Shown here piece by piece: positions 5,311 to 46,722 of a DNA stretch of 64,000 nucleotides. Source of the DNA: Trichlorobacter thiogenes (GTDB taxonomy: Bacteria; Desulfobacterota; Desulfuromonadia; Geobacterales; Pseudopelobacteraceae). Where the stretch lies: contig NZ_FUWR01000003.1 of NCBI RefSeq assembly GCF_900167465.1, forward strand, positions 1 to 64,000. The letters run 5' to 3'. The notes below the pieces were generated by a model. The model did not search any database, was not told where the DNA came from, and saw only the letters and a program-made list of their open reading frames with translations. The position numbers and the translations under genes are program-made. The number at the start of each line of letters is the position of its first letter. The first letter of the stretch is position 1.

Positions 5311-5313
5311 GCC

Positions 5314-8025
5314 ATGACACTCTTAAGTATCTGCATCGGTATCATTGCAGGCGGTATGCTGTTTCAGTTCCCCGGCGCAGTTTCAGGTGGGATCATCGGC
5401 TGGTTCTATTCCAGCCTGCAGCTGCTGCACAGCCGCCAGAACAAGCAGCAACAGGAGCTGGAGTGGCTGAGATCACGGTTGTCCACACATCTGCGGGGTG
5501 AACCTGAGCAAACAACGCCTGAGCCGGATCAGGCACCCAAGCCGGAACCTGCAGCCATGGTCACCCCAGTTCCGCTGGCGCGGCCAATGCCGACCCAACC
5601 GGCCTGGCAGCAGGAACAGGCAGCACCCAAAACCACCGTGGCCGCAACCGCTAAAAGCGAGCCTGCCTATACCTTCAGATACACCCCCGTGCCGGAAACC
5701 CTAGCCGAACCATCAGCGTTGGAAAACATTTTGAAGGCCATCTTTAACGGTGAAAACCTGCTGGTAAAACTGGGGGTATTGATCCTGTTTTGCGGCATCG
5801 CCTTTCTGGTCAAGTATGCAGCACAGCGTGGTATGTTTCCTCTTGAGTTGCGCCTGATGAGCGCTGCTGCCGGAGGCGTGGCCTTGCTGGCAACCGGCTG
5901 GAAGCTGCGCACCAAGCGGGCCGAGTATGCCCTGGCCCTGCAGGGTGGCGGCATCGGCATCCTCTATCTAGTCAGTTACGGGGCCTTCAGACTGTACGGG
6001 CTGATCCCTGCACTGCCTTCCTTCGGGTTGCTGGTGGCTATCTCCGGCCTGTGTGCTGCACTGGCACTGCTGCAAGAATCACGCACCATGGCACTGTTCG
6101 GTATTATCGGCGGCTTTGCGGCGCCGTTTCTGGCTTCGGTGGGAATCGGCGATCCGGCTTTGCTGTTCGGCTACTACACCGTGCTCAATCTTGTTGTGAT
6201 CGGCATCGCCTGGTTCCGTTCATGGCGTTCCCTCAACCTGACCGGTTTCATTGCCACCTTCCTGCTGAGTGGAATCTGGGGGACACATTACTACAAACCT
6301 GCCTATTTCAGTTCGGTTGAGCCGTTCCTGATCCTGTTCTTTCTGATCTACCTGGGGGTTGCCCTGCTGTTTGCACTCAGGCAACCGCCCGAGCTGCGCG
6401 GCATGCCTGATGCAACCATCATATTCGGTACACCGCTGGCTGCCTTTGCTCTGCAATCAGCACTGGTCAGCGATTTTCGCTACGGCATGGCCTGGAGCAG
6501 CTTGGTTGCCGGACTCTGCTACCTTGCCTGCTGCCGCCTGCTCTGGAACCGGGGCCTACAATTGCGCCCGCTGGCTGAATCGTTTCTGGCACTGGCAGGC
6601 ATACTGCTCACCCTGACCATACCACTGGCCTTTGATGGCCGCTGGACCTCCGCTGCCTGGGCACTGGAAGGGGCAACCATGGTCTGGCTGGGTTTCAGGA
6701 CAGAACGTCAACTGGTACGGGGCAGTGGCTACCTGCTGCAGCTTTTGTCCGGTCTTGCCTTTGCCTTTGGCGTGGCCCACACCAGCGGAAGCATGCCGCT
6801 ACTGAACAGCTTCTATCTGGGCTGCCTGCTGATCAGCCTGTCCGGCCTGTACAGTGCCTTTCTGCTGCATCGCCATACGCATCAGAGTCAGGAATGGGAA
6901 CAACCGCTGGAGTACCTGCTGATCGCCTGGGGACTCTGCTGGTGGTCCGGCGGTGCCCTGCGTGAGCTGGAACAGACAGTGGACAAAGAGTTCTTGTATG
7001 GTGCGATCCTGCTGTGCGCTGCTCTCTCAGCCCTGCTGATCCGCTTCGTAGCACGCAAGCTACAGTGGCAGAACTTTGGCTGGACCAGCCTGATTTTGCT
7101 AGCGCTGATGCCTGCAGCCGCAGTGGCTTGGTTCCCTGCTCATCCCCTGGCCCATGGCGGCTGGTTTGCCTGGCCGATCGCCTTTAGCGCAAGCTGGTGG
7201 TTGCTGTATTCCCATGACCAATTGCTGCCTGCCACGCTTAAACCATATCCCCATGCCCTGCTGGTCTGGCTGTTGGCACTGCTGGGCACCCTTGAGCTGG
7301 GTTGGCAGGTATCCTTTGCCATGCTGCAGCAGGGTAGCTGGCAGGAGATCAGCCAGGTGTTAATGCCGATCAGCCTGCTTGGGCTGCTGCAGATCGGCAA
7401 CAAAACCAACGTTTGGCCTTTTAGACAGGAGCGGATTACCTATCAGGGGATCATCGCCCTGCCGTTTGCGGTCTGGTCTCTGGGCTGGGTGGTGATCAGC
7501 TCCCTTATCTGCAGTGGCGACAGCAGTCCGCTACCCTGGCTGCCACTATTGAATCAGTTTGACCTGACCATCCTGGCTGCCATTGCCGTGTCAGCACTCT
7601 GGCTCCGCAGCCTGTATGCAGAACCTGCATTTCAGGAACTGCTGCATGAGCTGCAGCCTACGATCACTGCCGTCTTCAGCGCCGTTTGCTTTATCTGGCT
7701 AAACGGCATGCTGGCCCGCAGCCTGTATTACTGGGGAGAGGTGCCGTTCACGGCCCACGGCATGCTGCACTCACCCCTGGCCCAGGCATCCTTTTCCATC
7801 TTCTGGAGCCTTTTGGCACTGCTTGCCACCCTGTATGCGGTCCGCCACGGCCATCGCCTGATCTGGATCTGCGGGGCATCGCTCCTGGGGGTTGTGGTTG
7901 CCAAGCTGTTTATGGTAGATCTTGCAGGTCACGGTACTGTGGCCAGGATCGTATCATTTGTTGCCGTGGGACTGTTGCTGCTGGTAATCGGCTGGTTTGC
8001 ACCAGTACCTCCGAAACAGGAATAG
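5314..8025 (+). CDS. DUF2339 polytopic membrane protein
   Basis: A 903-residue protein of the DUF2339 family. An N-terminal Gly-rich membrane hairpin (ICIGIIAGGMLFQFPGAVSG) is followed by a Gln/Pro/Ala-rich cytoplasmic linker (about 35-125). After that come some two dozen hydrophobic helices, beginning with the conserved NLLVKLGVLILFCGIAFLVK stretch. LQGGGIGILYL and GGFAAPFL are typical of the family. Its biochemical role is not known. It lies 3 bases after the small membrane protein and 30 bases before the YiiX-like gene, which suggests one envelope function under the divergent sigma-54 activator. Confidence 0.85.
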   Translation: MTLLSICIGIIAGGMLFQFPGAVSGGIIGWFYSSLQLLHSRQNKQQQELEWLRSRLSTHLRGEPEQTTPEPDQAPKPEPAAMVTPVPLARPMPTQPAWQQEQAAPKTTVAATAKSEPAYTFRYTPVPETLAEPSALENILKAIFNGENLLVKLGVLILFCGIAFLVKYAAQRGMFPLELRLMSAAAGGVALLATGWKLRTKRAEYALALQGGGIGILYLVSYGAFRLYGLIPALPSFGLLVAISGLCAALALLQESRTMALFGIIGGFAAPFLASVGIGDPALLFGYYTVLNLVVIGIAWFRSWRSLNLTGFIATFLLSGIWGTHYYKPAYFSSVEPFLILFFLIYLGVALLFALRQPPELRGMPDATIIFGTPLAAFALQSALVSDFRYGMAWSSLVAGLCYLACCRLLWNRGLQLRPLAESFLALAGILLTLTIPLAFDGRWTSAAWALEGATMVWLGFRTERQLVRGSGYLLQLLSGLAFAFGVAHTSGSMPLLNSFYLGCLLISLSGLYSAFLLHRHTHQSQEWEQPLEYLLIAWGLCWWSGGALRELEQTVDKEFLYGAILLCAALSALLIRFVARKLQWQNFGWTSLILLALMPAAAVAWFPAHPLAHGGWFAWPIAFSASWWLLYSHDQLLPATLKPYPHALLVWLLALLGTLELGWQVSFAMLQQGSWQEISQVLMPISLLGLLQIGNKTNVWPFRQERITYQGIIALPFAVWSLGWVVISSLICSGDSSPLPWLPLLNQFDLTILAAIAVSALWLRSLYAEPAFQELLHELQPTITAVFSAVCFIWLNGMLARSLYYWGEVPFTAHGMLHSPLAQASFSIFWSLLALLATLYAVRHGHRLIWICGASLLGVVVAKLFMVDLAGHGTVARIVSFVAVGLLLLVIGWFAPVPPKQE

Positions 8026-13640: not shown

Positions 13641-14627
13641 TTACTGGATCTTCAGCACGATCTTGCCGAAATGTTTATCCTCTTCCATCATCCGGTGCGC
13701 CTCAACCACTTCATCAATTGAGAAGACCTTCTCAATGATCGGCACAATGGTACGATCAGCAAACTTGGGCAGGGCCGTCTTGGTGAATTCAGCCACAATA
13801 CCGGCCTTATCCTTGACCGGACGGGAACGCAGGACAGAACCGATGATCTGCTGACGCTTGACCATCATCAGTGCCAGGTTCAGCTCTGCCTTGATACCGC
13901 TGATAATACCGATGATCACCAGACGTCCGGCATAGCCCAGCGAAGCCATATTGGGGGCCAGGTACTTGGCACCGACATGGTCCAGGATCACATCCACACC
14001 CTTCTTGTTGGTGAACTCCTTGACTGCCTCAGAGAAATCAGGGGTGGTGGTGAAGTCAACCACCAGATCAACCCCCATCGCCTTGACCCGCTCAATCTTG
14101 CTGGGGTGGGAGGTGACAATGAGCTTGGTCTCCGGCACCAGCGCCTTGCAGAGCTGCACACCGGCCATGTTGACCCCGCCGCCGCCGCCATGGATGATAG
14201 CGGTGTTCTTGTCCTTCAGGCCACCGATCATAAACAGGTTGGAAAAGGCGGTGATGTAGGATTCACAGACGCAGGCAGCCTCTTCAAAGGACATGGACTC
14301 CGGGATCGGCATCAGGTGGCTGGCATAGGCCACGGCATACTCGGCACAGGCACCGCCGCCCACCAGCGACATGACCCGCTGACCCACCTGCCAGCCCTCA
14401 ACACCGGCACCAAGCTCTTCAATGGTACCTGCCACCTCAAGACCAAGGATTTCAGAATCGCCGGGAGGTGGTGGATATTTGCCTTCACGCTGCACCAGAT
14501 CAGGACGATTGATAGTGGTAGCAATCACCTTGACCAACACCTGGCCTTCAGCAGGGGTTGGCTTTGCAGCCTCACCCACCTTCAATACCTCCACGCCCCC
14601 AAAACCCTCCATCAATACAGCCTTCAT
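13641..14627 (-). CDS. NAD(P)H:quinone oxidoreductase, PIG3/zinc-less MDR family
   Basis: A 328-residue medium-chain dehydrogenase/reductase. It has the GroES-like N-terminal half (TTINRPDLVQREGKYPPPPG) and a nucleotide-binding Rossmann half (AIIHGGGGGVNMAGVQLCKA). It lacks the structural-zinc cysteine cluster, as in quinone oxidoreductases. LGLEVAGTIEELGAGV is the usual dimer-core motif. I chose ATG 14627 (MKAVLMEGFGGVEVL), which gives the family length; an upstream extension of 157 codons is an antisense shadow of surE. Likely role: NADPH-dependent reduction of quinones or unsaturated carbonyls. Confidence 0.85.
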   Translation of the reverse strand: MKAVLMEGFGGVEVLKVGEAAKPTPAEGQVLVKVIATTINRPDLVQREGKYPPPPGDSEILGLEVAGTIEELGAGVEGWQVGQRVMSLVGGGACAEYAVAYASHLMPIPESMSFEEAACVCESYITAFSNLFMIGGLKDKNTAIIHGGGGGVNMAGVQLCKALVPETKLIVTSHPSKIERVKAMGVDLVVDFTTTPDFSEAVKEFTNKKGVDVILDHVGAKYLAPNMASLGYAGRLVIIGIISGIKAELNLALMMVKRQQIIGSVLRSRPVKDKAGIVAEFTKTALPKFADRTIVPIIEKVFSIDEVVEAHRMMEEDKHFGKIVLKIQ

Positions 14628-14796
14628 AGGACCCCCTCCCAAATGAGATAGTGTTTGAAAAATGCGAGGGGCTAATCTACCTGCTTGGACCGCTTTTGTA
14701 AACCGAAAACCACCCATGAACCCTTGATTTAAGGGCTTTTTTCTGCCATAAACGGGCCGCAGCAAACAACCAAACCAAGACTTGGATGGTACAGCA

Positions 14797-15543
14797 ATGA
14801 ATATTCTGGTCACCAACGACGACGGCATCGGAGCAGCGGGCATCAAGGCCCTGGCTGAAGCACTGACAGAACTGGGCACGGTGACGGTAGTGGCCCCGGA
14901 CCGCGAACGGAGCGCTGCCGGACATTCCCTGACCCTGCACTCCCCCTTGCGGGTCTTTGAACTGCGTGACCGCTGGTTTGCCGTGGATGGCACCCCCACT
15001 GATTGCGTTAATATGGGCATCCACAGCCTGCTTGAAGCGCCGCCTGATCTGGTGGTTTCAGGGATTAACCACGGCGGTAACATGGGGGATGACATCACCT
15101 ACTCCGGCACCGTTGCCGCTGCCATGGAGGCCAACCTGATGGGCATACCGGCCCTGGCGGTATCGCTGGCCACCTTTGGCCCCACCGAACATTTCCCTGA
15201 TGCAGCCAAAGTAGCGGTTCAGGTGGCACGAATGTTGATCCAACAAGGCCTGCCCGCTGACACCTTCCTGAACCTGAATGTCCCTAACCTGCCTTTTTCA
15301 GAAATTAAAGCACCGCTGATCACCCGCCAGGGCAAACGCTCATTTGTGGGCAAGATCGTGGACAAGACCGACCCCAGAGGTCGTAAATACTACTGGATCG
15401 GCAGTGAAGAACCCAGTTTTCTGGATGATGAAGGAACTGACTTCAATGCGGTTGGCAAGGGGCATTCCTCCCTCACCCCACTGCATCTGGACCTGACCAA
15501 CCACCGTGCCATGGAAGCCCTGAAGCAATGGCAGATTGCCTGA
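14797..15543 (+). CDS. surE: 5'/3'-nucleotidase SurE
   Basis: A 248-residue SurE nucleotidase that removes phosphate from nucleoside monophosphates. MNILVTNDDGIGAAGIKAL carries the Asp-Asp metal pair. APDRERSAAGHSLT, VDGTPTDCVNMG and VSGINHGGNMGDDITYSGTV are the other conserved blocks. ATG 14797 is chosen over 14782 because the family starts at MNILV. It opens the surE-pcm-rpoS run, a conserved stationary-phase arrangement. In the divergent 170-bp gap upstream, a small CCCTT-GATTT-AAGGG hairpin followed by CTTTTTT (about 14724-14745) could be a leader attenuator. Confidence 0.93.
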   Translation: MNILVTNDDGIGAAGIKALAEALTELGTVTVVAPDRERSAAGHSLTLHSPLRVFELRDRWFAVDGTPTDCVNMGIHSLLEAPPDLVVSGINHGGNMGDDITYSGTVAAAMEANLMGIPALAVSLATFGPTEHFPDAAKVAVQVARMLIQQGLPADTFLNLNVPNLPFSEIKAPLITRQGKRSFVGKIVDKTDPRGRKYYWIGSEEPSFLDDEGTDFNAVGKGHSSLTPLHLDLTNHRAMEALKQWQIA

Positions 15544-32588: not shown

Positions 32589-32615
32589 GCGTGCTGTGGA
32601 TCCAGCGTAAAAGAG

Positions 32616-34241
32616 CTACTTTTTAGGTTCTTCCTTCTTGTTTGCCACTGCCAGGGCATCATTCAGGATCTTGACCCCGGCCTTGGAGGCGGCAATGGAA
32701 CCGGTCAGGGTTTCACGGGCCAGTGACGGATTATGGAAACCGTCAGAGTTCTCAGCGGTCCAGTACTCCCACAACACATGGGCTTCTTCATGCTTGGCCC
32801 GGGCCTGATCCAGCACTGCAGGGGCAACACCGGCACGGGAGGCCACCAGATAGGTGTCGATCAGCTGACCCAGCCAGTACTCTGCCTTGCGCATCTTGCC
32901 TTTGGTGTAGTTACGGATGGTGTCGATCTGCCACTTGGCCTTCTCAACACTGGAATCTTTATGGCAGCTGATGCAGGACTCTTTGGCCATATTGATCGGC
33001 TTGACCACACCGTGGGTGGAGTACGGCTTACCGTCTTTCCCCTTCAGCTTGGGCATATGGCACTGATGACACTGCACACCGGCCTTGTCATGGACTGAAC
33101 CGGCATAGGTCTCTGTCTCGGGGTGTTGCAGTTTGATCAGACGGGCACCGGTTATTGCATGCTTGAAGTCAAAGAAATCAAGCTGCTTGTAGTGGGCCAG
33201 GATCTCCTTGGCATTCTTGAGCGGGAAGTGGTTGGTGCGGTCTGAGGCAAAGGTCACCGGCTTACCATCGCTCCACTGGGTACCGGGGTTACAGTTGTAC
33301 TCAACATGACACTGGGCACACATCATGCGAGAATCGGTCTTTTCCATCACGCCGATCTTGCGGAAACCGTCACGGAAGGAGACTACCTTCAGGTCTGTCT
33401 TGCCGTTTTTGGCAAAGATATTCTTGGCCGGATCCTTGTCAATGGCGGCAATCAAGGCATCACGGATCACGCGGGGCTGGGTGCCGTGGGGGTCGTGGCA
33501 CTCGATACAGCCGACCGGGTTGTGGACATCCTTCATAACATCATTCACATTGGAGGTACGGTCAAACTTGCCCCCCTTCTCACCCAGATACTTCCACTTC
33601 AGGATCAGGTCAGAGGTCTTGCACTGGATACAGGTCGGATTACCGGCCATGGCGGTCTCGGTCAGTTTGGCGCTGGCCCCTTTATCCTCCAGCACATCCC
33701 AAGTCTTACCGACCTTGTCATAGTTCTTCCAGCCACCTTTAAACTGGTAACGTCCGCCCTGGAAACGATCCACCGCAAACTGGTCAACCACCATAAAGGC
33801 ATGGCCGCGGGGCTCGGCATGCTCAAAGGTAAAGCCGTGACCTGCCAGCAGCTTGTCCTGCATTGGCGAACGGCCGGTTGGCACCCCTTTTTCCTTACGG
33901 GAGCCGCCATCAGGATAGTGCGGGGTAAAGAAGCTCTGATACTGATTCTTGTGACAGGAACCACAGACCGCCGGGTCCAGCTTGGTCACCGGCCTGGTGT
34001 CTGGGCCGGGGTTGGCCAGGTGCTCCTTGGTCTTGTCGTGACAGACCGAACAGGCCAGTGCGGCATGTTTGGATGCCTCTTTAAGCGCCTTTACCTCACT
34101 GTGGCACATGTAGCACTGCTCACGCCCATCATTGGCAGGCTTGGCTGCCGGTTTGGCCTTGGGGGCTGCCAGCGAAGGGATCGCCAGCAGGGCGCCAAGC
34201 CCGACAATAGTTGCTGCAACTGCCAGTCTCTGTTTCAGCAT
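32616..34241 (-). CDS. Octaheme cytochrome c nitrite reductase (ONR/TvNiR type)
   Basis: A 541-residue exported cytochrome, signal peptide about 1-25 (SLAA). Eight heme motifs occur at Cys43, 64, 93, 204, 245, 308, 391 and 423. Seven are CxxCH and the fourth is CIQCK with Lys208, the order of octaheme nitrite reductases. Arg145, Tyr315 and His373 match the catalytic set. Tyr315-x-Cys317 (EYNC) matches the Tyr-Cys crosslink pair known in Thioalkalivibrio ONR. Glu314, Lys370 and Gln372 keep the NrfA calcium ligands. It should reduce nitrite, and perhaps hydroxylamine, to ammonium in the periplasm. A NapF-like ferredoxin gene precedes it by 34 bases. Confidence 0.9.
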   Translation of the reverse strand: MLKQRLAVAATIVGLGALLAIPSLAAPKAKPAAKPANDGREQCYMCHSEVKALKEASKHAALACSVCHDKTKEHLANPGPDTRPVTKLDPAVCGSCHKNQYQSFFTPHYPDGGSRKEKGVPTGRSPMQDKLLAGHGFTFEHAEPRGHAFMVVDQFAVDRFQGGRYQFKGGWKNYDKVGKTWDVLEDKGASAKLTETAMAGNPTCIQCKTSDLILKWKYLGEKGGKFDRTSNVNDVMKDVHNPVGCIECHDPHGTQPRVIRDALIAAIDKDPAKNIFAKNGKTDLKVVSFRDGFRKIGVMEKTDSRMMCAQCHVEYNCNPGTQWSDGKPVTFASDRTNHFPLKNAKEILAHYKQLDFFDFKHAITGARLIKLQHPETETYAGSVHDKAGVQCHQCHMPKLKGKDGKPYSTHGVVKPINMAKESCISCHKDSSVEKAKWQIDTIRNYTKGKMRKAEYWLGQLIDTYLVASRAGVAPAVLDQARAKHEEAHVLWEYWTAENSDGFHNPSLARETLTGSIAASKAGVKILNDALAVANKKEEPKK

Positions 34242-34275
34242 ACCGTATTCTCCTCTCTTCTGGATGTTGGTGAAA

Positions 34276-34638
34276 CTATTCGCCTGAACTCACTTCAGCG
34301 CGTATCCGCAGCGTAATCGCCTTGGGGGTAACCGGACAGACATACAGACAGCTAGCGCAGCCGGTGCAGCGGGTTGCATCAATCCTGATCCCCTCCCCCA
34401 TCACCACCACAATTGCCTGCTGTTCACATTTTTCAACACAACTGAAACAGCCGCAGTTGCGGGCCAGGCAACGCTCATTGCGCGGCACTGCCACCATCGG
34501 CTGATCTCCGTAGGGTAGCTCAGAAGACTCTTCAGCTGCTTCCACGTTCGGCTGCTGCACCATGCCGGATGCCTTCAGTAGTGTATCACCCAACGAAAAC
34601 AGGCCTTTTCTGAAAAACTCCTTCCGTGAAAGCGTCAC
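34276..34638 (-). CDS. NapF-like 4Fe-4S ferredoxin
   Basis: A 120-residue protein. The N-terminus TLSRKEFFRKGLFSLGDT is like the NapF leader. Cysteine sets CLARNCGCFSCVEKC and CTGCASCLYVCP could bind two [4Fe-4S] clusters. The start is chosen at GTG 34638, preceded by GGGAAGGA; GTG 34662 is an alternative. It is upstream of the octaheme nitrite reductase and should pass electrons to it or help its assembly, but cellular location is uncertain. Confidence 0.78.
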   Translation of the reverse strand: MTLSRKEFFRKGLFSLGDTLLKASGMVQQPNVEAAEESSELPYGDQPMVAVPRNERCLARNCGCFSCVEKCEQQAIVVVMGEGIRIDATRCTGCASCLYVCPVTPKAITLRIRAEVSSGE

Positions 34639-34751
34639 CTCACACCATCCTTCCCTATTCACTCACCCTGCCCGCTGCCTGTTGCGGGGTAGCATTGCAA
34701 GATGCAGGCAAAGCTGATGTATGCATCTTACAGATAAGCTTGTACCGCGTG

Positions 34752-34767
34752 TTTGACCAAAGTCAAA
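34752..34767. promoter_or_regulatory. CRP/FNR-type dyad TTTGAC-N4-GTCAAA
   Basis: A perfect 16-bp palindrome lies 114 bases upstream of the ferredoxin-octaheme operon and 44 bases upstream of the -35 box of the divergent peroxiredoxin gene. A second perfect copy of the TTGAC-N4-GTCAA core lies at 35892 and a near match at 52015. Confidence 0.6.
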
Positions 34768-35972: not shown

Positions 35973-37961
35973 ATGTTTAAAAACCTGAAAATAGCACCGA
36001 AGCTATTATTGCTCCTGATTATCCCCATTATCGGCATGGCATTTTTTGCAGCTAGAATCCTGATGGACAATCTGTCCACCCTTAACAATATGCAGACCAC
36101 CCGAGCACTGGTGGCTGTCTCGGTTGCATCCGGCAACCTGATTCATGAATTACAGAAAGAACGGGGCCTCACCTCTGGTTTTCTTGCGTCAAAAGGCGCA
36201 AAAAACGGCGATGAACTACAGAAGCAGCGTCTGGTAGTGGATGGTATAGCAAGCAAAATGCAGGAAACCGTTGCTGCCCAGGCAGGCAAAACCGAGGCCA
36301 TTAAAAAGGCACTGGATGCGGTTGCAGAAAAGATCAGTAAGTTGAAGGAGACCCGTTCAGCAATAGACAGTCAGTCTCTTGATGCGAAAGCCGCTCTTGG
36401 CTACTACACCGGTCTGATCAGTAACTGCCTCGAAATCGGTTTTGCCGTAGTGGGCAAGGCAGGTGAACCGGAAACCTCACTGGCAGCCTTCGGTTATGTC
36501 GCCTTTCAGGGAGCCAAAGAGTCAACCGGTCAACTGCGCGCCACGATCAACGGCGTACTTTCGGCCGACACGTGTGATCTGGCCACCACGCAGCGGATAT
36601 CACGAATTGCGGCAAGTGAACAAAACCGGATGAGCAACTTTGATCGCTATGCTGATCCAGCTGTAGTCAAGGAATACAAGGAGATAGCCCAGAAGGAAAC
36701 CGCCTTTCAGAAGACAACTGAAATGCTCCAGACGATTTTGGACAAGGGGATTGGCAACGGTTTTGGTATACCAGCTGAGACATGGTTCAGTACCATTACC
36801 ACCAAGATCAACCATCAAAAGACTATTGAAGACAAGTTGGCAGCCAGCCTGATCAAACTAAGCGAAACAAAAGCATTCGCCGCCAAACGGGATGTCAGCC
36901 TTAGCATTTTGCTTACGACAATACTGGCAGCAGTGACCATTCTGTTTGGAATTGTTATTATGAAAAGCATTACCAGTCCGCTTCAGTCACTGGTACTGAT
37001 GCTGAAAGATATTGCCGAAGGTGAAGGAGATCTGACCAAACGCCTGCCGGAAGGCAGCAAAGATGAGACCGGCGAGGTTGCCTACTGGTTTAACCGCTTT
37101 ATTAACAATATCCACTCTATTATCTCCCAAGCATCAACTACGACGGTACAGGTGGCCACCGCCTCAAGCCAGCTGAATAGTACTGCCGAGCAGATTGCTA
37201 CCGCTGCAGAAGAGGTCGCTGCACAATCAGCGACCGTGGCTACGGCCAGCGAAGAGATGTCTGCCACCTCAAATGATATTTCCCGCAACTGTACACTTGC
37301 ATCAGATGTCGCAAACCGAGCCAGTGAGATGGCCCATGGTGGAGCCAGCGTGGTACAGGAAACTATCTCCGGCATGCAAAACATAGCTGACAAGGTACGG
37401 GAATCAGCCCATACCGTTGAAGCACTGGGAGCCCGATCAGACCAGATCGGAGCGATTGTAGGCACCATTGAGGATATTGCTGACCAGACCAACCTGCTGG
37501 CCCTGAACGCAGCTATTGAGGCAGCCCGGGCCGGTGAGATGGGGCGTGGCTTTGCGGTGGTTGCTGACGAAGTACGGGCACTGGCGGAACGGACCACCCG
37601 CGCTACCCGCGAAATCGGCGAGATGATCAAGGCGATCCAACAGGAAACCGGTGGTGCTGTGGCCTCCATGGAACAGGGAGTTAAAGAAGTAGAGAAAGGG
37701 ATGGACAGTTCACGACGTTCCGGTGACGCGCTGCAGCAGATCCTGGAAGGGATCAACGAAGTAACCATGCAGGTACATCAGATTGCCACAGCTGCGGAAG
37801 AGCAGACTGCAGTGACCGGTGAGATCTCCAACAACATCCATCAGATTACCGATGTGGTCCAGCAGACCGCTAATGGAGCCCACCAAACAGCCGGGGCAGC
37901 CTCGGAACTGTCTAACCTGGCAAAGAGCCTTGAAAACCTGGTAGGTCGGTTTAAACTGTAA
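35973..37961 (+). CDS. Methyl-accepting chemotaxis protein with NIT sensor domain
   Basis: A 662-residue chemoreceptor. TM1 (about 9-28) and TM2 (about 312-332) enclose a periplasmic all-helical domain. Its start ([20 protein letters not shown]) has the LQKERG signature of the NIT domain, proposed to sense nitrate and nitrite. A HAMP domain and a signalling domain follow ([20 protein letters not shown] and [20 protein letters not shown]). Location between two nitrite reductase loci supports nitrate/nitrite taxis. AGGGGAACGC precedes ATG 35973. A PAS protein and a sigma-54 activator follow. Confidence 0.88.
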
Positions 37962-38005: not shown

Positions 38006-38437
38006 ATGCTCAACATTAACCAGCAGCTGCAGCAGGCAGCCGACGAATCGCAAGACGCAATCCTGATCGCAGACCTTGCAGGGATCATCCGCTACTGGAA
38101 CGCCGGTGCGGAACGGATTCTGGGCTACTCGGCTGCAGAGGCGGTCGGGCAATCGCTGGACCTGTTCATCCCGGAAAAGCTGCGTGGCCGGCACTGGGAT
38201 GGGTATCACCGGGTGATGGCCAGCGGCGAGACTAAATACAAGACCGGCCTGCTTTCATCACCCGGCATCCGCAAGGACGGCAGTCAGGTCTCACTGGAGT
38301 TCAGCATGGTGCTGCTGAAAGATGAACAGGGCGTTATGCAGGGCTGCGCCTCGATCATGCGTGATGTGACCGAACGCTGGCTGAAAGAGAAGGAGCTGAA
38401 GCAGCGGCTGGCTGCCTGTGAGGCTGCTCAATCATGA
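38006..38437 (+). CDS. Stand-alone PAS domain protein
   Basis: A 143-residue single PAS/PAC protein (DAILIADLAGIIRYWNAGAE, then LGYSAAEAVGQSLDLFIPE, and IMRDVTERW). It has no output domain, so it may act on the adjacent chemoreceptor or activator. Several PAS proteins of this length and pattern bind heme or flavin; cofactor residues cannot be proven by eye. GGGGGGTGA precedes the ATG, 44 bases after the chemoreceptor stop. Confidence 0.82.
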   Translation: MLNINQQLQQAADESQDAILIADLAGIIRYWNAGAERILGYSAAEAVGQSLDLFIPEKLRGRHWDGYHRVMASGETKYKTGLLSSPGIRKDGSQVSLEFSMVLLKDEQGVMQGCASIMRDVTERWLKEKELKQRLAACEAAQS

Positions 38438-39996: not shown

Positions 39997-40012
39997 TTGG
40001 CACGTCTTCTGT
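39997..40012 (+). promoter_or_regulatory. Sigma-54-like promoter of napD
   Basis: TTGGCACG (39997-40004) is a perfect -24 element; the -12 element is CTGT (40009-40012) instead of TTGC. Predicted start near 40024, giving an 80-base leader. The same -12 variant occurs at 5061, which suggests a tolerated local form. Confidence 0.5.
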
Positions 40013-40102
40013 ATAAGCATCCAGATAATCTGTTGACTGTCCTTGGGCGCAGGGAGCCAGTACCGCCCTACAACCGTATCCGTACAAGACCATGAGGTGA
40101 GT

Positions 40103-40372
40103 ATGCCGATTTCAGGGGTGGTAGTAAGTTGCAGACCAGGCAGGGAAGCCGAGGTTGCGGAGCAGGCCAGGCTTGTGCCTGGCGTAGAGGTTCATGGGAC
40201 ATTGCCCAATGGGCAGCTGGTTGCCGTGATTGAGGCGGCCTCTGTACATACCGAAGTGGACCTTGCCTCGCAACTGGAACAGCTTGACGGGGTCATTAGT
40301 GTGCAGGTGGCGTACCATAATTTTGAAGATGTCGTCCAACAAGGAGGCGCAGATGGAACTGACGAGGCGTGA
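40103..40372 (+). CDS. napD: NapD, chaperone for NapA
   Basis: An 89-residue NapD-family protein (PISGVVVSCRPGREAEVAEQ and GVEVHGTLPNGQLVAVIEA). NapD binds the twin-arginine signal of NapA to hold export until cofactors are inserted. ATG 40103 starts the conserved PISGVVV segment. Its end overlaps napA by 20 bp, so the chaperone and its client are made together. It is the first gene of the nap-nrf operon. Confidence 0.9.
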   Translation: MPISGVVVSCRPGREAEVAEQARLVPGVEVHGTLPNGQLVAVIEAASVHTEVDLASQLEQLDGVISVQVAYHNFEDVVQQGGADGTDEA

Positions 40373-42665
40373 TTTCCTGAAGGCCAGTGCGGCAGCAGCC
40401 GCCTTTGCCGCAGCCGGGGCTCCGGGGCTTGCCCCCCGTTTGGCTTCTGCTGCCGATGACAAAGGGATCAAGTGGGGTAAGGCCCCCTGTCGGTATTGCG
40501 GCGTTGGCTGCTGCGTGCTGGTGGGTGTCAAGGACGGCAAGATCGTTGCCACCAAGGGCGATCCGGCCGGCCCAGTCAACAAGGGACTCAACTGTATCAA
40601 GGGCTACTTTCTCTCCAAGGCGCTCTACGGCAAAGACCGCCTGACCCATCCATTGATCCGTAAAGGCAACAAGATGGTCAAGGCCAGCTGGGATGAAGCA
40701 CTTAACCTGATTGCCTCAAAGTACAAGGAAGCGATCGCCAAGACCGGACCTGATTCAGTTGCCATCTATGGTTCTGGTCAATGGACCGTGTTTGAAGGCT
40801 ACACGGCATCCAAGCTGTTCAAGGGAGGGATCGGCACCAACAATATTGAACCAAACGCCCGGCTCTGCATGGCCTCCGCCGTGGCCGGTTTTATGAGTAC
40901 CTTCAACTCCGATGAGCCGATGGGCTGCTACGATGATCTTGATCTTGGTGACACCTACATCCTGTGGGGCGCCAACATGGCAGAGGCCCACCCGGTCCTC
41001 TTCTCCCGTCTGATCGACAACAAGCTAAAGAACAAAAAAGTAAAAATTATCGACATAGCTACCCGCAAAACCCGTACTACCCAGATGGCCGATGAGTACA
41101 TCCCGATGTATCCCCAGGGAGATCTGGCCGCAGTGAATGCCATTATCCATGTCATCCTGCGGGACAAGCTCTACGATGAGGCCTTTGTCAAACAGCACGT
41201 CAACTTCAAACGAGGCACAGAAAATCAGCCCTACGGCCTGAAAGACAAAGAAAACGCAAAAGAAGAACCCAAACCACTTACCTTTGACGAATACAAAACC
41301 CTGATGAAGCCGATGACCCCGGAATGGGCTGAAAAGCTGTCCGGCATTCCAGCTAAAAAAATTGAACAGCTGGCCCATATCTATGGCGACAAATCCCGCA
41401 AGGTTAATTCGCTCTGGACCATGGGGGTTAATCAGCATGTCCGTGGGACCTGGGTTAACAACCTGATCTATAACATCCACCTGTTGACCGGCAAGATCTG
41501 CAAGCCGGGCGAGAACCCGCTCTCCTTGACCGGACAGCCTTCTGCCTGCGGCACCGCCCGTGAAGTAGGCACCTTTTCCCACCGCCTGCCAGCTGACATG
41601 GTGGTGATGAACGAGGCGCACCGCAAGAAAACTGCCGAGATCTGGGGGATTGACCCTAAGAAGATCTCGCCAAAACCAGGCCTGCATACGGTTGAGATGT
41701 TCCGCGCCATTGACCGGGGGGAATTGAAGTGCATCTGGATTCAATGCACCAACCCGTTCCAGTCCATGCCCAACCTTTCCCGCTACCGCAAGGCGGCCCA
41801 GGCCCGCAAGGCATTCATTGTGGTCTCTGACATCTATCCAACCAAATCCACTGAAGTTGCTGATGTAATCCTGCCTTCAGCCAGCTGGGTCGAGAAGGAG
41901 GGCGTCTTTGGCAACACTGAACGCCGTACCCAGCAGTGGTTCAAGATGGTGGAACCACCTGGCGAGGCCAAGGAAGATACCTGGCAGCTGATTGAATTTG
42001 CCAAGCGGATTGGCCACGGCGGACTGTTCCCCTACAGCCAGAAGAATTTTTACAAAGAGATGTGGGAAGAGTACCGCAAATTCACGGTCGGCACCGGCAA
42101 AGACCTTGCCCCCTATGAGACCTATTTCAAGGTTCGTGGCCTGCGTTGGCCGGTCAAGAGCAATGGCCAGGAAACCCGCTGGCGTTACACTGAAGTAGAT
42201 GATCGCTACGTCAAAAAGGGAGAAGGGGTGAAGTTTTACAAGGGTGTAGGTGGCAAGGCCAACGTCTGGTTCCGCCCCTACGAGCCACCAGCAGAGAGCC
42301 CGGACAAAGAGTACCCGTTCTGGTACTGCACCGGTCGGCTACTGGAACATTGGCATACCGCCACCATGACTGGACGGGTGCCGGAACTGCGTCGGGCCAT
42401 GCCAGGGGCAACCCTTGAGATCCACCCGGAAGATGCCGCCCGTTTAGGGATCAAAAACCGCGACAAAGTCAAGGTAAGTTCCCGCCGTGGTTCCCTTGTA
42501 CTTACCGCCGAGATTAATGGCCGTGGCAAGCCGGAAAAAGGCAACGTCTTTACCACCTTCTTTGACGAAACCAAGTTGATCAATGACCTCTGTATTGATG
42601 CCTTTGATCCGATCTCCAAAGAACCGGACTTCAAGAAATGCGCGGTTAAAATCGAGAAAGCGTAA
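40353..42665 (+). CDS. napA: Periplasmic nitrate reductase catalytic subunit
   Basis: A 770-residue molybdoenzyme reducing nitrate to nitrite. The Tat signal is TRRDFLKAS. A [4Fe-4S] cluster is bound by Cys46, Cys49, Cys53 and Cys81 (CRYCGVGC ... NCIKG). Cys172 (NARLCMAS) is the likely molybdenum ligand. The C-terminal cap domain carries GRLLEHWHTATMTGRVPEL. AAGGAGG precedes ATG 40353. The length is shorter than E. coli NapA (about 828), closer to monomeric NapA of Desulfovibrio, consistent with the lack of a full-size NapB here. Confidence 0.94.
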   Translation: MELTRRDFLKASAAAAAFAAAGAPGLAPRLASAADDKGIKWGKAPCRYCGVGCCVLVGVKDGKIVATKGDPAGPVNKGLNCIKGYFLSKALYGKDRLTHPLIRKGNKMVKASWDEALNLIASKYKEAIAKTGPDSVAIYGSGQWTVFEGYTASKLFKGGIGTNNIEPNARLCMASAVAGFMSTFNSDEPMGCYDDLDLGDTYILWGANMAEAHPVLFSRLIDNKLKNKKVKIIDIATRKTRTTQMADEYIPMYPQGDLAAVNAIIHVILRDKLYDEAFVKQHVNFKRGTENQPYGLKDKENAKEEPKPLTFDEYKTLMKPMTPEWAEKLSGIPAKKIEQLAHIYGDKSRKVNSLWTMGVNQHVRGTWVNNLIYNIHLLTGKICKPGENPLSLTGQPSACGTAREVGTFSHRLPADMVVMNEAHRKKTAEIWGIDPKKISPKPGLHTVEMFRAIDRGELKCIWIQCTNPFQSMPNLSRYRKAAQARKAFIVVSDIYPTKSTEVADVILPSASWVEKEGVFGNTERRTQQWFKMVEPPGEAKEDTWQLIEFAKRIGHGGLFPYSQKNFYKEMWEEYRKFTVGTGKDLAPYETYFKVRGLRWPVKSNGQETRWRYTEVDDRYVKKGEGVKFYKGVGGKANVWFRPYEPPAESPDKEYPFWYCTGRLLEHWHTATMTGRVPELRRAMPGATLEIHPEDAARLGIKNRDKVKVSSRRGSLVLTAEINGRGKPEKGNVFTTFFDETKLINDLCIDAFDPISKEPDFKKCAVKIEKA

Positions 42666-42674
42666 TGCATTTTC

Positions 42675-42756
42675 AACGCAAAGACGCAGAGGCGCAAAGA
42701 AAATTAAATAAATACGGTTTTCAGCTGTTCTCTCTGCATCTCTGTGTCTCTGCGTT
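42675..42756. repeat. Long inverted repeat inside the nap operon
   Basis: AACGCAAAGACGCAGAG (from 42675) pairs with CTCTGTGTCTCTGCGTT (to 42756), with mismatches. It fills the 106-bp gap between napA and napG. A transcript would form a long hairpin, which could protect the napA message or lower downstream expression. Confidence 0.75.
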
Positions 42757-42771
42757 AAGAAAGTATTTTGT

Positions 42772-43434
42772 ATGCATTCTGACTCAAAAAATTCCGGCAT
42801 CAGCCGCCGCCTGTTTCTGAAGGGCAGCATCCTTACGCCGTTGGCCCTGGCGCTGGGTGGTGCCGCCATCTCGGCGGTGTATCTCCGCCCGGCTCAGGCA
42901 CGGGGCTTCTATCTTCGCCCTCCGGGAGCAATTCAGGAAACCCGCTTTCTGGCAGCCTGTGTCAAATGCGGCAAGTGCGCTCAGGCCTGCCCCTACAAAT
43001 CAATCATCATGGCTGGGGGTGAGGCCGGTGTCGGAATCGGAACCCCCCACATCATCCCACGGGAGACCCCCTGTTACCTCTGTACTGACCTGCCCTGCGT
43101 CAAGGCCTGCCCAAGCGGGGCGCTGGATAAACGGCTGACCGAGGTGGAAAAAATACAGATGGGGACAGCCGTCATTGTTGATCGTGAAGGATGCCTCTCA
43201 ATTCGGGGGCTGCGCTGTGAGGTCTGCTACCGTCAGTGCCCGTTGATAGACAAGGCGATCACCATTGAGCCGCGCCACAACACCCGCACAGGTGAGCACA
43301 CAATTATGGAGCCGGTGATCCACAAGGATAAATGTGTCGGCTGTGGCATCTGTGAAAAGGTCTGTGTGCGGGAAACTCCCGTCATTGCGGTGCAAAAACG
43401 GATACAGGAACAGAAAGATTCCTATGAATTTTAA
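42772..43434 (+). CDS. napG: NapG, ferredoxin-type quinol dehydrogenase component
   Basis: A 220-residue exported ferredoxin with a Tat signal (SRRLFLKGS). Four cysteine sets could bind four [4Fe-4S] clusters: CVKCGKCAQAC, CYLCTDLPCVKAC, CLSIRGLRCEVCYRQC and CVGCGICEKVC. With membrane protein NapH it moves electrons from quinol toward NapA. The end overlaps napH by 11 bp. The ATG follows the inverted repeat directly and has no strong ribosome site. Confidence 0.92.
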   Translation: MHSDSKNSGISRRLFLKGSILTPLALALGGAAISAVYLRPAQARGFYLRPPGAIQETRFLAACVKCGKCAQACPYKSIIMAGGEAGVGIGTPHIIPRETPCYLCTDLPCVKACPSGALDKRLTEVEKIQMGTAVIVDREGCLSIRGLRCEVCYRQCPLIDKAITIEPRHNTRTGEHTIMEPVIHKDKCVGCGICEKVCVRETPVIAVQKRIQEQKDSYEF

Positions 43435-44242
43435 GCGCTGGACCATAGCCCGTCATACGGTGCAGCTGCTGATGATTGCCCTGCTGGCCTCCCCCTTGGC
43501 CGGTCTGGCAATCTTCAGGGGCAACCTGGCAGCTGCAGAGCTGCTGGGATTGCCTCTTGCTGATCCACTGGCTTTTTTACAGGCGACCCTGGGTGGACTG
43601 GTCTTTGTCGTTTCCTATCTACTCAGTACTCTGGCCGTGGTCGCTTTTTATTTCCTGCTGGGTGGACGAACATTCTGCGGCTGGGTCTGCCCGGTGGGGC
43701 TGATTACGGAACTTGCTGACAAGCTGCGCAAAAAACTGGGAACCGGGGCTACGGTTCTGCCCCTAAACCTCAATCGCTGGAGCTTACTGCTGGTGCTGGC
43801 AGTGGTGACCATCACCGGTATTCCGCTTTTTGAGGTGGTCTCTCCCATCGGGATCATCAACCGGGCAGTTGTCTTCGGTTCGCTCCTGCCCCTGCTGTTG
43901 GTGGCAGCCATCCTGCTGACAGAGCTGCTGGTTGCCCGGCGGGTTTGGTGCCGTTCACTCTGCCCTTTGGGAGGATTCTATAGTCTGCTAGCAGGAGCAA
44001 GCCCGCTACGGATCGGATTTATTGCTGAACGCTGTACGCACTGCAACGACTGCCTCAAGGTCTGTCCGGTGGAAGAGGTGCTGCAACCCTCGTTGGAACT
44101 GAATCAACCCCAGGTGGCTGCTGGAGACTGCACTCGCTGCATGGCCTGTCTTGATGCTTGTCCGTCAAAGGCGCTCACTATTTCCGTTGGTTATCACTCA
44201 CGTTCAAAAGACACAACAGACCCCCACAAAGGAGGCCGATGA
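43424..44242 (+). CDS. napH: NapH, membrane quinol dehydrogenase component
   Basis: A 272-residue membrane protein with about four or five helices. Two C-x3-CP motifs occur in loops (CGWVCPVG and CRSLCPLGG), typical of NapH/NosR relatives. The C-terminus has two [4Fe-4S] sets (CTHCNDCLKVCP and CTRCMACLDACP). ATG 43424 lies inside napG and gives the family N-terminus; earlier frames do not. Its stop overlaps a possible ATG of the next gene. It should oxidise menaquinol and pass electrons to NapG. Confidence 0.92.
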   Translation: MNFKRWTIARHTVQLLMIALLASPLAGLAIFRGNLAAAELLGLPLADPLAFLQATLGGLVFVVSYLLSTLAVVAFYFLLGGRTFCGWVCPVGLITELADKLRKKLGTGATVLPLNLNRWSLLLVLAVVTITGIPLFEVVSPIGIINRAVVFGSLLPLLLVAAILLTELLVARRVWCRSLCPLGGFYSLLAGASPLRIGFIAERCTHCNDCLKVCPVEEVLQPSLELNQPQVAAGDCTRCMACLDACPSKALTISVGYHSRSKDTTDPHKGGR

Positions 44243-44547
44243 TGAAACGCTTTGCACAGCTTGTATCCCTGATTTTCTGCTTGCTGCTGCTGGTTTTAAC
44301 CCCTGTCTATGCCGATGATCAGCCTGAGCCCAATCTGGCTGCCGATGCAGTGAAGGCGGAAAAGCATCCACCGGTTATACCTCACGGTGTGCAGGATGAT
44401 GCCGATGGGGCTACCTGCAATGGCTGCCATACCGGCAGCCTGAAGATGGCACCCCACCCTGATCGACTGAACTGCACCCAGTGCCACGTACCGGGTGAGG
44501 TTAAAAAGGCGGTTAAAAAGGGGAGTAAAAAAGGGAACAAAAAGTAA
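44242..44547 (+). CDS. Short diheme cytochrome c, NapB-like
   Basis: A 101-residue exported protein with a signal peptide (about 1-25, VYADD) and two CxxCH motifs (CNGCH and CTQCH). HPPVIPHGVQD and NCTQCHVPG match the corresponding NapB segments, but the part between the hemes is much shorter than in NapB and the tail is Lys-rich (KKAVKKGSKKGNKK). ATG 44242 is set 6 bases after GGAGG. It is probably the electron acceptor for NapGH and donor to NapA; the reduced size makes direct NapB function unproven. Confidence 0.82.
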   Translation: MKRFAQLVSLIFCLLLLVLTPVYADDQPEPNLAADAVKAEKHPPVIPHGVQDDADGATCNGCHTGSLKMAPHPDRLNCTQCHVPGEVKKAVKKGSKKGNKK

Positions 44548-44652
44548 CCGACCGATCAGGCTGAGCTGTTTTAAAGCTGCTGAGTATCCATCGAGACCAC
44601 TAGATTGGTGTTTCGACATATCATTTTAACAAGTAAGAGGGGGGGTGAAGGG

Positions 44653-45117
44653 ATGGGATCTTTTTTAAGTGGTAAACGACTGCAAATTGCTGTCATTGCC
44701 GCTATCTGCGCAGTGTTGTTTGGTGTTTTCCTGTTGTTGGGTCCACCACAACTGCTGGCAAAGTCTGAATCTCCGGACTTTTGTGCCAGCTGCCATGTCA
44801 TGGAAGCCCAGCACACTGCGTTCATGCACTCCGGTGCACACCGGCGCAACAAATGTGTTGATTGCCACCTGCCCAACGATGGCATTGCCATGCACTACAT
44901 CTGGAAATCCATCGACGGCATGAAAGACGTACTGTTCTTCTACTCCGGCAAGGTTCCGGAGAAGATCACGCTGTCTGAGCATGGCGCCAAGGTGGTCAAG
45001 GCCAACTGCATCAGATGCCACAGCACACTGGTGTCACAGATGGATACCTCGCGTGACTGCTGGAAATGTCACCGCCGTATAACCCACACCGGTGTCGGCA
45101 GTATAGAGACCAACTAA
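44653..45117 (+). CDS. nrfH: NrfH, tetraheme quinol dehydrogenase (NapC/NirT family)
   Basis: A 154-residue membrane-anchored cytochrome. One N-terminal helix (about 9-30) is followed by four CxxCH motifs (CASCH, CVDCH, CIRCH, CWKCH), with CASCHVME like the Met-ligated first heme of NrfH. It oxidises menaquinol and supplies NrfA. As no NapC gene is present, it may also feed NapA. ATG 44653 follows a G-rich ribosome site; the frame upstream is not conserved. It lies 30 bases before nrfA. Confidence 0.92.
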   Translation: MGSFLSGKRLQIAVIAAICAVLFGVFLLLGPPQLLAKSESPDFCASCHVMEAQHTAFMHSGAHRRNKCVDCHLPNDGIAMHYIWKSIDGMKDVLFFYSGKVPEKITLSEHGAKVVKANCIRCHSTLVSQMDTSRDCWKCHRRITHTGVGSIETN

Positions 45118-45147
45118 CCCACCCACAACCACCCAGGAGGATTGAGT

Positions 45148-46602
45148 ATGAGAATAAGAATGAAACTGCTTGCAACCCTCATGGCAGCTGCCCTGTGCGG
45201 CTTCATGACAACCGCCTGCGCACCACCCAAGGCTGAAAAGGCAACAATCGCCCCGATTCCTGATGGCACGATTGATCCTGCTGTCTGGGGTAAAAACTAC
45301 CCTGAAGAGTACGAGACCTGGAAGAAAACTGCCGAAGCCACTCCGGAAGGTAAGAGTAAATACAAAAAAGGCAACGACGGCGGCAAGGTCTATGACAAGC
45401 TGTCCGAATATCCCTTTATCGCCCTGCTGTTTAACGGTTGGGGCTTTGGTATCGAGTACAACGAGCCACGCGGCCACGTTCACATGATGAAGGACCAGAA
45501 AGAGATCGACCCTTCACGCCTGAAGGGTGGCGGGGCCTGCCTGACCTGTAAAACCCCCTATGCACCGCAACTGGCCCAGAAGCAGGGCGTTACCTACTTC
45601 TCACAGTCCTATGCCGATGCGGTCAATCAGATCCCCAAAGAGCATCAGGAGATGGGCGTCGCCTGTATCGACTGCCACAACAACAAAGATATGAGCCTGA
45701 AGATCTCCCGTGGCTTTACCCTGTCCAAGGCCCTGGACAAAATGGGAGTCGATCAGACCAAGCTGACCAACCAGGACAAGCGCTCCCTGGTCTGTGCCCA
45801 GTGCCACGTCACCTACACCATCCCCAAAGATGCCAACATGAAGTCACAGGATGTCTTCTTCCCCTGGGATGAAAGCAAATGGGGCAAGATCAGCATTGAA
45901 AACATCATCAAGAAGATGCGCAGCGACAAGTCCTACGGAGAGTGGACCCAGGCCGTAACCGGTTTCAAGATGGCCTACATCCGTCACCCTGAGTTTGAGA
46001 TGTATTCCAACCAGAGCGTACACTGGATGGCTGGTGTTTCCTGTGCAGACTGCCACATGCCGTACACCAAGGTGGGCAGCAAGAAGATCTCTGACCACCG
46101 GATCATGAGCCCGCTCAAGAACGACTTTAAAGGCTGCAAGCAGTGCCACAGTGAAACCTCTGAATGGTTGAAGAATCAGGTTATTACCATTCAGGACCGT
46201 GCTGCATCCCAGTACATCCGCTCCGGCTATGCCCTGGCCACCGTTGCCAAGCTGTTTGAACTGACCCACAAGCAGCAGGCAGCAGGCAAGCAGGTAGATC
46301 AGAAACTGTACGACCAAGCCAAGTTCTACTACGAAGAAGGTTTCTATCGTAACCTGTTCTTTGGCGCCGAGAACTCCATCGGTTTCCACAATCCGACCGA
46401 AGCGATGCGTATCCTTGGTGATGCAACCATGTTTGCCGGCAAGGCCGACGGTCTGTTGCGCCAGGCACTGACCAAGGCCGGTGTGGATGTGCCGGTGAAG
46501 ATTGATCTGGAGCTGGCCAAGTACACCAACAACCGTGGAGCCAAGAAGCTGATGTTCAAGCCTGAGCAGGAGTTGAAAGACCCCTACGGCGAAATGAAGT
46601 AA
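45148..46602 (+). CDS. nrfA: Pentaheme ammonia-forming nitrite reductase
   Basis: A 484-residue enzyme reducing nitrite to ammonium with six electrons. The hemes are at Cys131 (CLTCK, Lys135 axial ligand), 173, 216, 299 and 330. Arg108, Tyr223 and His280 fit the active site. The calcium ligands of classical NrfA are missing: Glu is Thr222 (CHVTY), and the K-x-Q is Tyr277-Ile-Arg279. This matches the arginine-containing subclass described for Geobacter lovleyi NrfA. The N-terminus ends TTACAPP, possibly a lipoprotein site. ATG 45148 has AGGAGG at good spacing; TTG 45142 is too close. Confidence 0.95.
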   Translation: MRIRMKLLATLMAAALCGFMTTACAPPKAEKATIAPIPDGTIDPAVWGKNYPEEYETWKKTAEATPEGKSKYKKGNDGGKVYDKLSEYPFIALLFNGWGFGIEYNEPRGHVHMMKDQKEIDPSRLKGGGACLTCKTPYAPQLAQKQGVTYFSQSYADAVNQIPKEHQEMGVACIDCHNNKDMSLKISRGFTLSKALDKMGVDQTKLTNQDKRSLVCAQCHVTYTIPKDANMKSQDVFFPWDESKWGKISIENIIKKMRSDKSYGEWTQAVTGFKMAYIRHPEFEMYSNQSVHWMAGVSCADCHMPYTKVGSKKISDHRIMSPLKNDFKGCKQCHSETSEWLKNQVITIQDRAASQYIRSGYALATVAKLFELTHKQQAAGKQVDQKLYDQAKFYYEEGFYRNLFFGAENSIGFHNPTEAMRILGDATMFAGKADGLLRQALTKAGVDVPVKIDLELAKYTNNRGAKKLMFKPEQELKDPYGEMK

Positions 46603-46649
46603 TTTTTGAAGTAGCTCAGGGTAGCGTAAGCAACAACACTAACCTGAAA

Positions 46650-46683
46650 CAACGGGCTGCCGGATGATTCCGGCAGCCCGTTG
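46650..46683. terminator. Bidirectional terminator after nrfA
   Basis: A perfect 15-bp stem (CAACGGGCTGCCGGA and its complement) with a TGAT loop lies 47 bases after nrfA and 39 bases after the convergent PilZ gene's stop. T run is short on both strands. Confidence 0.78.
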
Positions 46684-46722
46684 TACTATGGCATCATAAA
46701 GCGAAAAGACAATCACACCAGA

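Follow-up and report, generated by a model that had tools for sequence, protein, structure and literature searches.

We analysed a 64,000-nt stretch of the Trichlorobacter thiogenes genome (contig NZ_FUWR01000003.1, positions 1-64,000; hereafter the window), in which the genes of the nitrate reductase Nap stand ahead of nrfHA, the genes of the ammonia-forming nitrite reductase NrfA and of NrfH. We put at roughly three in four the probability that this is a nitrate-to-ammonium locus in which a relocated nap block lies ahead of nrfHA, with electrons passing from NapGH through NapB to NapA and from NrfH to NrfA, and with an octaheme nitrite reductase (ONR) standing separate. Judged from sequence, the arrangement is real and somewhat unusual, consisting of well-known parts brought together by local rearrangement. 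It is not a new type of system; it is a variant built of known modules.

Seven genes follow one another on the plus strand in the order napD-napA-napG-napH-napB-nrfH-nrfA, all with ATG starts (Table 1), and family searches and coordinates agreed with the order given by the initial annotation, in which napB appeared as a diheme gene. The overlaps it described within nap are present at napD/napA, napG/napH and napH/napB but not between napA and napG, which are 106 bp apart with a hairpin repeat between them; the gaps it gave around nrfH, 105 bases on the napB side and 30 on the nrfA side, were correct. NapH is also above the NF007013 cut-off; NapD is below the stricter model NF007840 (37.6 vs 113 bits required) and NapG just under NF007012 (264.5 vs 269 bits required). 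NrfA is below the cut-offs of the NCBIfam NrfA models (NF008339, 216 of 595 bits; TIGR03152, 159 of 692 bits) and scored 1078 bits against PDB 6v0a, which together with 2j7a represents the solved relatives of the window NrfHA. In whole-genome searches of the assembly (GCF_900167465.1, 3.57 Mb in 42 draft contigs, completeness 100, contamination 0.04), the single PF03264 (NapC/NirT family) match at E<=0.001 was the window NrfH. The absence of napC reported earlier was thereby upheld, and no napC homologue, which the initial annotation had named as the finding that would overturn its view, was found elsewhere in the genome. Nothing above cut-off was found for NarG in the whole-genome search, so that Nap is the only respiratory nitrate reductase found in this genome, and two PF02335 genes are present, nrfA and ONR. 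The D-A-G-H-B order on one strand without napC fits the napDAGHB type, which is a known operon type, as is napCMADGH (PMC13223375).

Table 1. Coordinates of the features of the nap-nrfHA locus and its surroundings in the window.
Feature	Position	Strand	Details
napD (chaperone)	40103-40372	+	PF03927 84.2 bits, cut-off 28
napA (770-aa catalytic subunit, short form without E. coli 540-589 insert)	40353-42665	+	TIGR01706 1012.7 bits, cut-off 930.6
napG (polyferredoxin)	42772-43434	+	TIGR00397 183.4 bits, cut-off 178.9
napH (membrane ferredoxin)	43424-44242	+	TIGR02163 238 bits, cut-off 213; CX3CP and 4Fe-4S motifs
napB (miniature diheme form, 101 aa)	44242-44547	+	PF03892 24.5 bits, cut-off 25.1
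nrfH (tetraheme menaquinol dehydrogenase)	44653-45117	+	TIGR03153 148.7 bits, cut-off 134.2; four CXXCH
nrfA (pentaheme ammonia-forming nitrite reductase)	45148-46602	+	CXXCK and four CXXCH; PF02335 543 bits, cut-off 24.1
Rearrangement junction napB/nrfH	44550-44635	.	matches to relatives end at 44549, resume at ~44635
106-bp hairpin repeat, napA-napG gap	42666-42771	.	-37 kcal/mol, z -5.28 vs shuffles
Strong hairpin after nrfA	46649-46684	.	-47.4 kcal/mol for 46600-46700, z -9.24
Sigma-54-type promoter-like site TGGCACGTCTTCTGTA	39998-40013	+	105 nt before napD; 12/15 on consensus
Regulator: PAS, sigma-54 activator, Fis-type helix-turn-helix	38462-39880	+	PF00158 236 bits, PF02954, PAS
ONR	32616-34241	-	8 heme motifs, one CXXCK and seven CXXCH; PDB 8rv0 973 bits
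NapF-like ferredoxin gene	34276-34638	-	reading frame extends open as far as 34662; GTG start assigned after the T. lovleyi gene
TTGAC-N4-GTCAA palindrome	34753-34766	.	upstream of NapF-ONR; exact match, one of two in window
NIT-domain (nitrate/nitrite sensing) chemoreceptor	35973-37961	+	PF08376 169 bits; between ONR and nap block

Comparison with relatives indicates that the nap block (about 38.5-44.55 kb, comprising the regulator, the sigma-54-type promoter and napDAGHB) is relocated and inverted relative to its flanks. The closest relative (G126) is the soil bacterium T. lovleyi, whose NrfA aligned without mismatch over 481 residues to PDB 6v0a, the structure called Geobacter lovleyi NrfA (PMC12285233). 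In T. lovleyi the order is nrfHA on the minus strand, about 7.6 kb of other genes, a peroxiredoxin-rubrerythrin pair on the minus strand, and then regulator-napDAGHB-NapF-ONR on the plus strand, so that about 10 kb separate nap from nrfHA, which is oppositely oriented. Read in the same direction, the window has the nap block inverted between nrfHA and a PAS gene (38006-38437), and ONR directly after the peroxiredoxin pair. The ONR gene, a second ammonifying nitrite reductase gene overlooked by the initial annotation, is located 6 kb upstream of nap on the opposite strand; the orthologue is present, only not directly behind nap. It is 98.5% identical to the ONR behind nap in T. lovleyi (L032), and the NapF-like protein, a weak TIGR00402 match (20.7 vs 102.2 bits), is 80% identical to that encoded at L032 8156-8509, where the gene overlaps the stop of napB. 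At the DNA level, the region behind napB in G126 is found again on the minus strand of the window (32615-34641), with 90.7% identity across 2032 bp. The ONR of another relative (G125), which we take to be probably T. ammonificans, matched PDB 8rv0 without mismatch over 495 residues. The order nap then ONR has been described for T. lovleyi, and a Nap-ONR partnership for T. ammonificans (PMC11972089). With this Nap-ONR (Nap-TaNiR) module the window shares the same napDAGHB, the same kind of short NapB and orthologous NapF and ONR; it differs in that nap is followed by nrfHA, and ONR and NapF are gone from behind nap. Because ONR lies behind nap in most relatives and the T. lovleyi layout is as described, we conclude that the nap block has moved, leaving ONR behind and coming to abut nrfHA.

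The survey of relatives rests on NapB-profile matches in 47 other genomes, for 45 of which the regions were fetched (G048 and G101 left out). Two of these (L075 and L076) hold no nap locus, which leaves 43 nap loci with short NapB; four loci cut by contig ends or an insertion (L033, L059, L061 and L070) enter the 43-locus ONR count but are left out of the NapA tree and of the napGH table, which covers 39 loci. Behind nap lies ONR in 27 loci, nrfHA in 4 and neither in 12 (that is, none inside the fetched stretch). Identity to the window ONR is only 45-47% for three of the 27 (L067, L071 and L072), and the ONR of L034 is cut short. The genes napGH were present in 22 of the 39 uncut loci and in none of the four followed by nrfHA; the window is the only locus in this set with both. 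Three of these four napDA-B plus nrfHA loci belong to genus g5 (one being Oryzomonas japonica) and one to genus g3, where a NapF-like gene stands between nap and nrfHA. The window and T. lovleyi are paired in the NapA tree, within an ONR clade. In the NrfA tree (35 rows, consisting of matches accompanying loci and nap-linked NrfAs, two duplicates dropped), the window NrfA falls within a group of unlinked NrfAs from the genus and is separate from the four nap-linked g5/g3 NrfAs, and the starred branches force two changes of the nap-linked label. Most simply, the nap-nrfA linkage would have been gained twice.

At the napB-nrfH junction, homology on the napB side ends two bases past the stop codon, and homology on the nrfH side begins at the ribosome site. 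The 86 bp between them have no match in the relatives compared or in the genus; no junction-spanning match was found in 14 other genomes of the genus, 9 of which match one side or both sides separately. Repeat-mediated recombination was considered and rejected, only short imperfect repeats being found near the junctions, one of them a 21-nt arm at 34657. The junctions might alternatively be assembly errors in a misjoined contig, with a true order of nap-NapF-ONR as in T. lovleyi. The assembly is a draft of 42 contigs and the arrangement was seen in one genome only, but this explanation would need three separate junctions, none of which contains an N or more than short imperfect repeats, and the junction genes are intact in an assembly of full completeness and very low contamination. 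We regard it as highly improbable.

The regulator preceding napD travels with the nap block (collinear with T. lovleyi from 38517 onward) and is 57-82% identical among the 9 relatives that have it before napD. In all nine, the best upstream sigma-54-type site scored at least 12/15, a score reached in only 3 of 28 loci without that regulator before napD. Nitrate raises the expression of the nap and ONR genes in T. lovleyi (PMC11972089). In the window, sigma-54-dependent transcription, probably nitrate-responsive, would run from napD through nrfA. Since the plus-strand scan of the napB-nrfH spacer listed no terminator-like or sigma-70-like site, the spacer folds no better than shuffles (z 0.29) and a hairpin follows nrfA, a single napD-nrfA transcript is likely. 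Neighbouring but separate transcription units, with an nrfHA promoter in the spacer, seem improbable to us: 105 bp is long enough for a promoter, and an exact TTGAC-N4-GTCAA, presumably a Crp/FNR-type site, precedes nrfH in 3 of the 7 relatives with a readable upstream region, but the palindrome is absent before the window nrfH, as is any sigma-70-like site on that strand, the best sigma-54 score in the spacer is 8/15, and homology to other nrfH upstream regions begins only at about 44635, the ribosome site. The displaced NapF-ONR pair has acquired a new upstream region of about 170-190 bp carrying an exact palindrome; an origin of this region from an old nrfH promoter was considered, but only the short palindrome is in common and no longer homology. 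ONR would be a second nitrite reductase under separate control, now alone with NapF on the other strand. Allowing one mismatch, the palindrome occurs 4 times in the window against 1.8 expected, and as 10 of 100 shuffles reach 4, it is not significantly enriched.

As to electron supply, four of the 42 nap genomes (G079, G080, G103 and G140) carry napGH alongside the same short NapB and gave no PF03264 match, other quinol-oxidase families not having been searched; the NapC/NrfH family is therefore not needed with this NapB, and NapGH without a NapC-family protein seems to suffice in some relatives. Genomes lacking a NapC-family match numbered 0 of 17 among those without napGH vs 4 among the remaining 25, of which 23 have napGH and 2 a cut locus, a difference that is suggestive and was counted without statistics. 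Each of the 17 nap genomes without napGH has one or more PF03264 matches, in many cases within an open frame of about 510-570 amino acids that is probably ImcH-like, and a NapC-family protein probably serves Nap in these relatives. In the window, the ratios of nonsynonymous to synonymous substitution (dN/dS) of NapG and NapH (0.06 and 0.17, vs 0.06 and 0.16 in a control pair) point to purifying selection; relaxed selection on napGH, which was considered, left no sign in them. Because selection on napG and napH is normal, we take NapGH as the main electron route to Nap and likely a menaquinol dehydrogenase. NapH and NapG would oxidise menaquinol and pass electrons via the small diheme NapB to NapA, which would reduce nitrate to nitrite, and NrfH would oxidise menaquinol for NrfA, which would reduce nitrite to ammonium; electrons might also cross over from NrfH to NapB, which this scheme does not require. 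The initial annotation had offered two routes, NrfH as quinol oxidase for both enzymes or NapGH through the diheme to NapA; the four napGH genomes favour the latter, and the former is possible.

A stronger version of the former route, in which NrfA and NapB/NapA share NrfH as their menaquinol dehydrogenase and NapGH has an auxiliary part or is being lost, appears unlikely. It would account for the four relatives with napDA-B and nrfHA and no napGH, for the nitrate reduction of Oryzomonas with Nap and without Nar (PMC11633192), and for the hairpin repeat and poor ribosome site before the window napG; Shewanella uses CymA, which belongs to the family of NrfH, for NapB as well as for NrfA (PMC5114592). 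In Oryzomonas, which has Nap and no Nar, growth on nitrate is described for O. rubra Red88 and nitrate reduction for O. japonica Red96 and O. sagensis Red100; attempts to obtain mutants of the Geobacteraceae strains in that study are reported to have failed (PMC11633192). However, the four genomes with napGH and no NapC-family match and the purifying selection on napG and napH speak for NapGH, all four napGH-less nrfHA relatives also carry a longer NapC-family open frame (515-537 amino acids), so that NrfH is not the sole candidate there, and a review deems functional exchange between NapC and NrfH unlikely (PMC12285233). We consider it quite unlikely that the locus represents a transitional stage on a path, taken more than once, by which NrfH supplants NapGH. 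On that view, after nap had come to stand before nrfHA, NrfH would feed NrfA as well as the small NapB, and napGH, here preceded by the hairpin and a poor ribosome site, would become dispensable, as in Oryzomonas and genus g3, whose nap-nrfHA loci lack napGH. A single quinol dehydrogenase and a single promoter would then serve the reduction of both nitrate and nitrite.

Besides the draft state of the assembly, several points weigh against the preferred reading of a relocated, singly transcribed block with NapGH as the route to Nap. The route of relocation may have been two inversions or one transposition, and the PAS gene between ONR and nap is also placed elsewhere in T. lovleyi. The score of the sigma-54-type site was reached in 4.7% of 1000 shuffles and is weak alone. 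The hairpin after nrfA has no T-run and was not listed by the terminator scan. No good ribosome site was seen by eye before napG, after the hairpin repeat, and the output of NapGH may therefore be low.

The window NapB has two CXXCH motifs 19 residues apart (motif to motif) and a Lys-rich tail with a net charge of +7 (median +5 among 43 sequences, range -1 to +7). Its 101 residues, short inter-heme segment and tail are as the initial annotation described them, but these features are not peculiar to this locus: the spacing is 18-24 residues in the NapB of relatives vs 40 in 3ml1 and 1ogy, and the short form is the usual one in Geobacterales relatives. The short NapB profile was matched at E<=0.001 in 48 of 141 genomes of the order, own genome included, the weakest matches not being NapB; outside the order it was matched in a few genomes of the phylum, with 13 of 395 in total, three of them (own included) from the family of the window. 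A PPxIPH-CXXCH-His-CXXCH frame with ten invariant positions (P43, H48, C59, C62, H63, H72, R75, C78, C81 and H82) was found in 23 aligned sequences, and the conserved His would bind heme. As the spacing of about 40 residues is not reached, the protein was filed as a short variant, which probably acts like NapB. A six-frame search with the Pfam NapB model (PF03892, E<=0.001) found no match in the own genome or in G125, so that surveys based on this model may score such genomes as lacking NapB. An AlphaFold2 model of NapB alone was poor (predicted local distance difference test score 65.9, predicted template modelling score 0.32), too poor for a structure search, and was not used. In addition, tandem four-heme versions of the short NapB were detected at L060 7984-8403, L065 7864-8325 and L142 9653-10189, one of these from a KSB1 bacterium whose NapA has 780 amino acids.

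NapA had been called Desulfovibrio-like in length. Its length and the absence of the insert at about E. coli 540-589 agree with this, the insert being absent from all 41 NapA rows including the window, but the protein scored higher against E. coli NapA (PDB 2nya, 867 bits) than against that of Desulfovibrio desulfuricans (PDB 2jio, 635 bits). The missing insert and the short NapB co-occur throughout the set; one clearly longer NapB of the phylum was examined (G382), where NapA is split over two frames. A Tyr described as conserved in heterodimeric Nap (PMC13223375) is kept in the window as Y85 and is Tyr in all 40 rows with a letter there. D. desulfuricans NapA has Ser at this position, whereas E. 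coli, C. necator, R. sphaeroides and the window have Tyr, and we therefore expect the window Nap to be a NapAB pair rather than a monomeric NapA. Two other NapB-contact positions named in PMC13223375 are changed, with Pro for E47 and mostly Thr, in the window too, for S772. The D. desulfuricans system, like the window, has a short NapA without the insert, and unlike the window has NapC and NapM and no NapB. Its nap operon is presumably napCMADGH.

In the literature search, the nearest equivalent of a nap-nrfHA fusion was the Oryzomonas napDAB/nrfAH clusters, which resemble the window in a short NapA, a short NapB, nrfHA directly behind and no NapC in the cluster (PMC11633192); unlike the window, they have no napGH, and their NrfHA is of another lineage. 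The Shewanella napDAGHB has the gene order of the window and no NapC, but its NapB is about 16 kDa, and CymA is the quinol dehydrogenase and, rather than NrfH, serves NrfA (PMC5114592). The clade offers natural tests of electron supply, with napGH without the NapC/NrfH family, nrfHA without napGH, and both together in an apparent operon in the window. Rearrangement can exchange the nitrite-reductase module that stands behind nap, and a nap gene therefore does not predict which ammonifying enzyme follows.

Some further features of these loci were observed. Four further sites in the own genome match parts of the hairpin repeat between napA and napG over 28-34 bp. The napA-napG gap also folds strongly in L032 (6294-6380, -47.7 kcal/mol) and L037 (6950-7079, -63.4 kcal/mol), the comparison with shuffles covering the window and L032, and is just 3-15 bp in 14 of 22 relatives. 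In T. lovleyi, nrfHA is preceded by a multiheme gene (L115 11394-12650; PF13447, weakly like hydrazine dehydrogenase), and none such precedes the window nrfHA. The lone PAS protein gene shares the interval between ONR and nap with the NIT-domain chemoreceptor. In two g5 genomes, a NapF-like gene stands behind nrfA (L047 10164-10721; L050, Oryzomonas japonica, 5188-5568), a layout that would fit either a replacement of ONR by nrfHA or an insertion of nrfHA between napB and napF. In L152 (G131, UBA6169), ONR is split into 1039-1812 and 13955-14863 by about 12 kb that by eye resemble a Mu-like phage.

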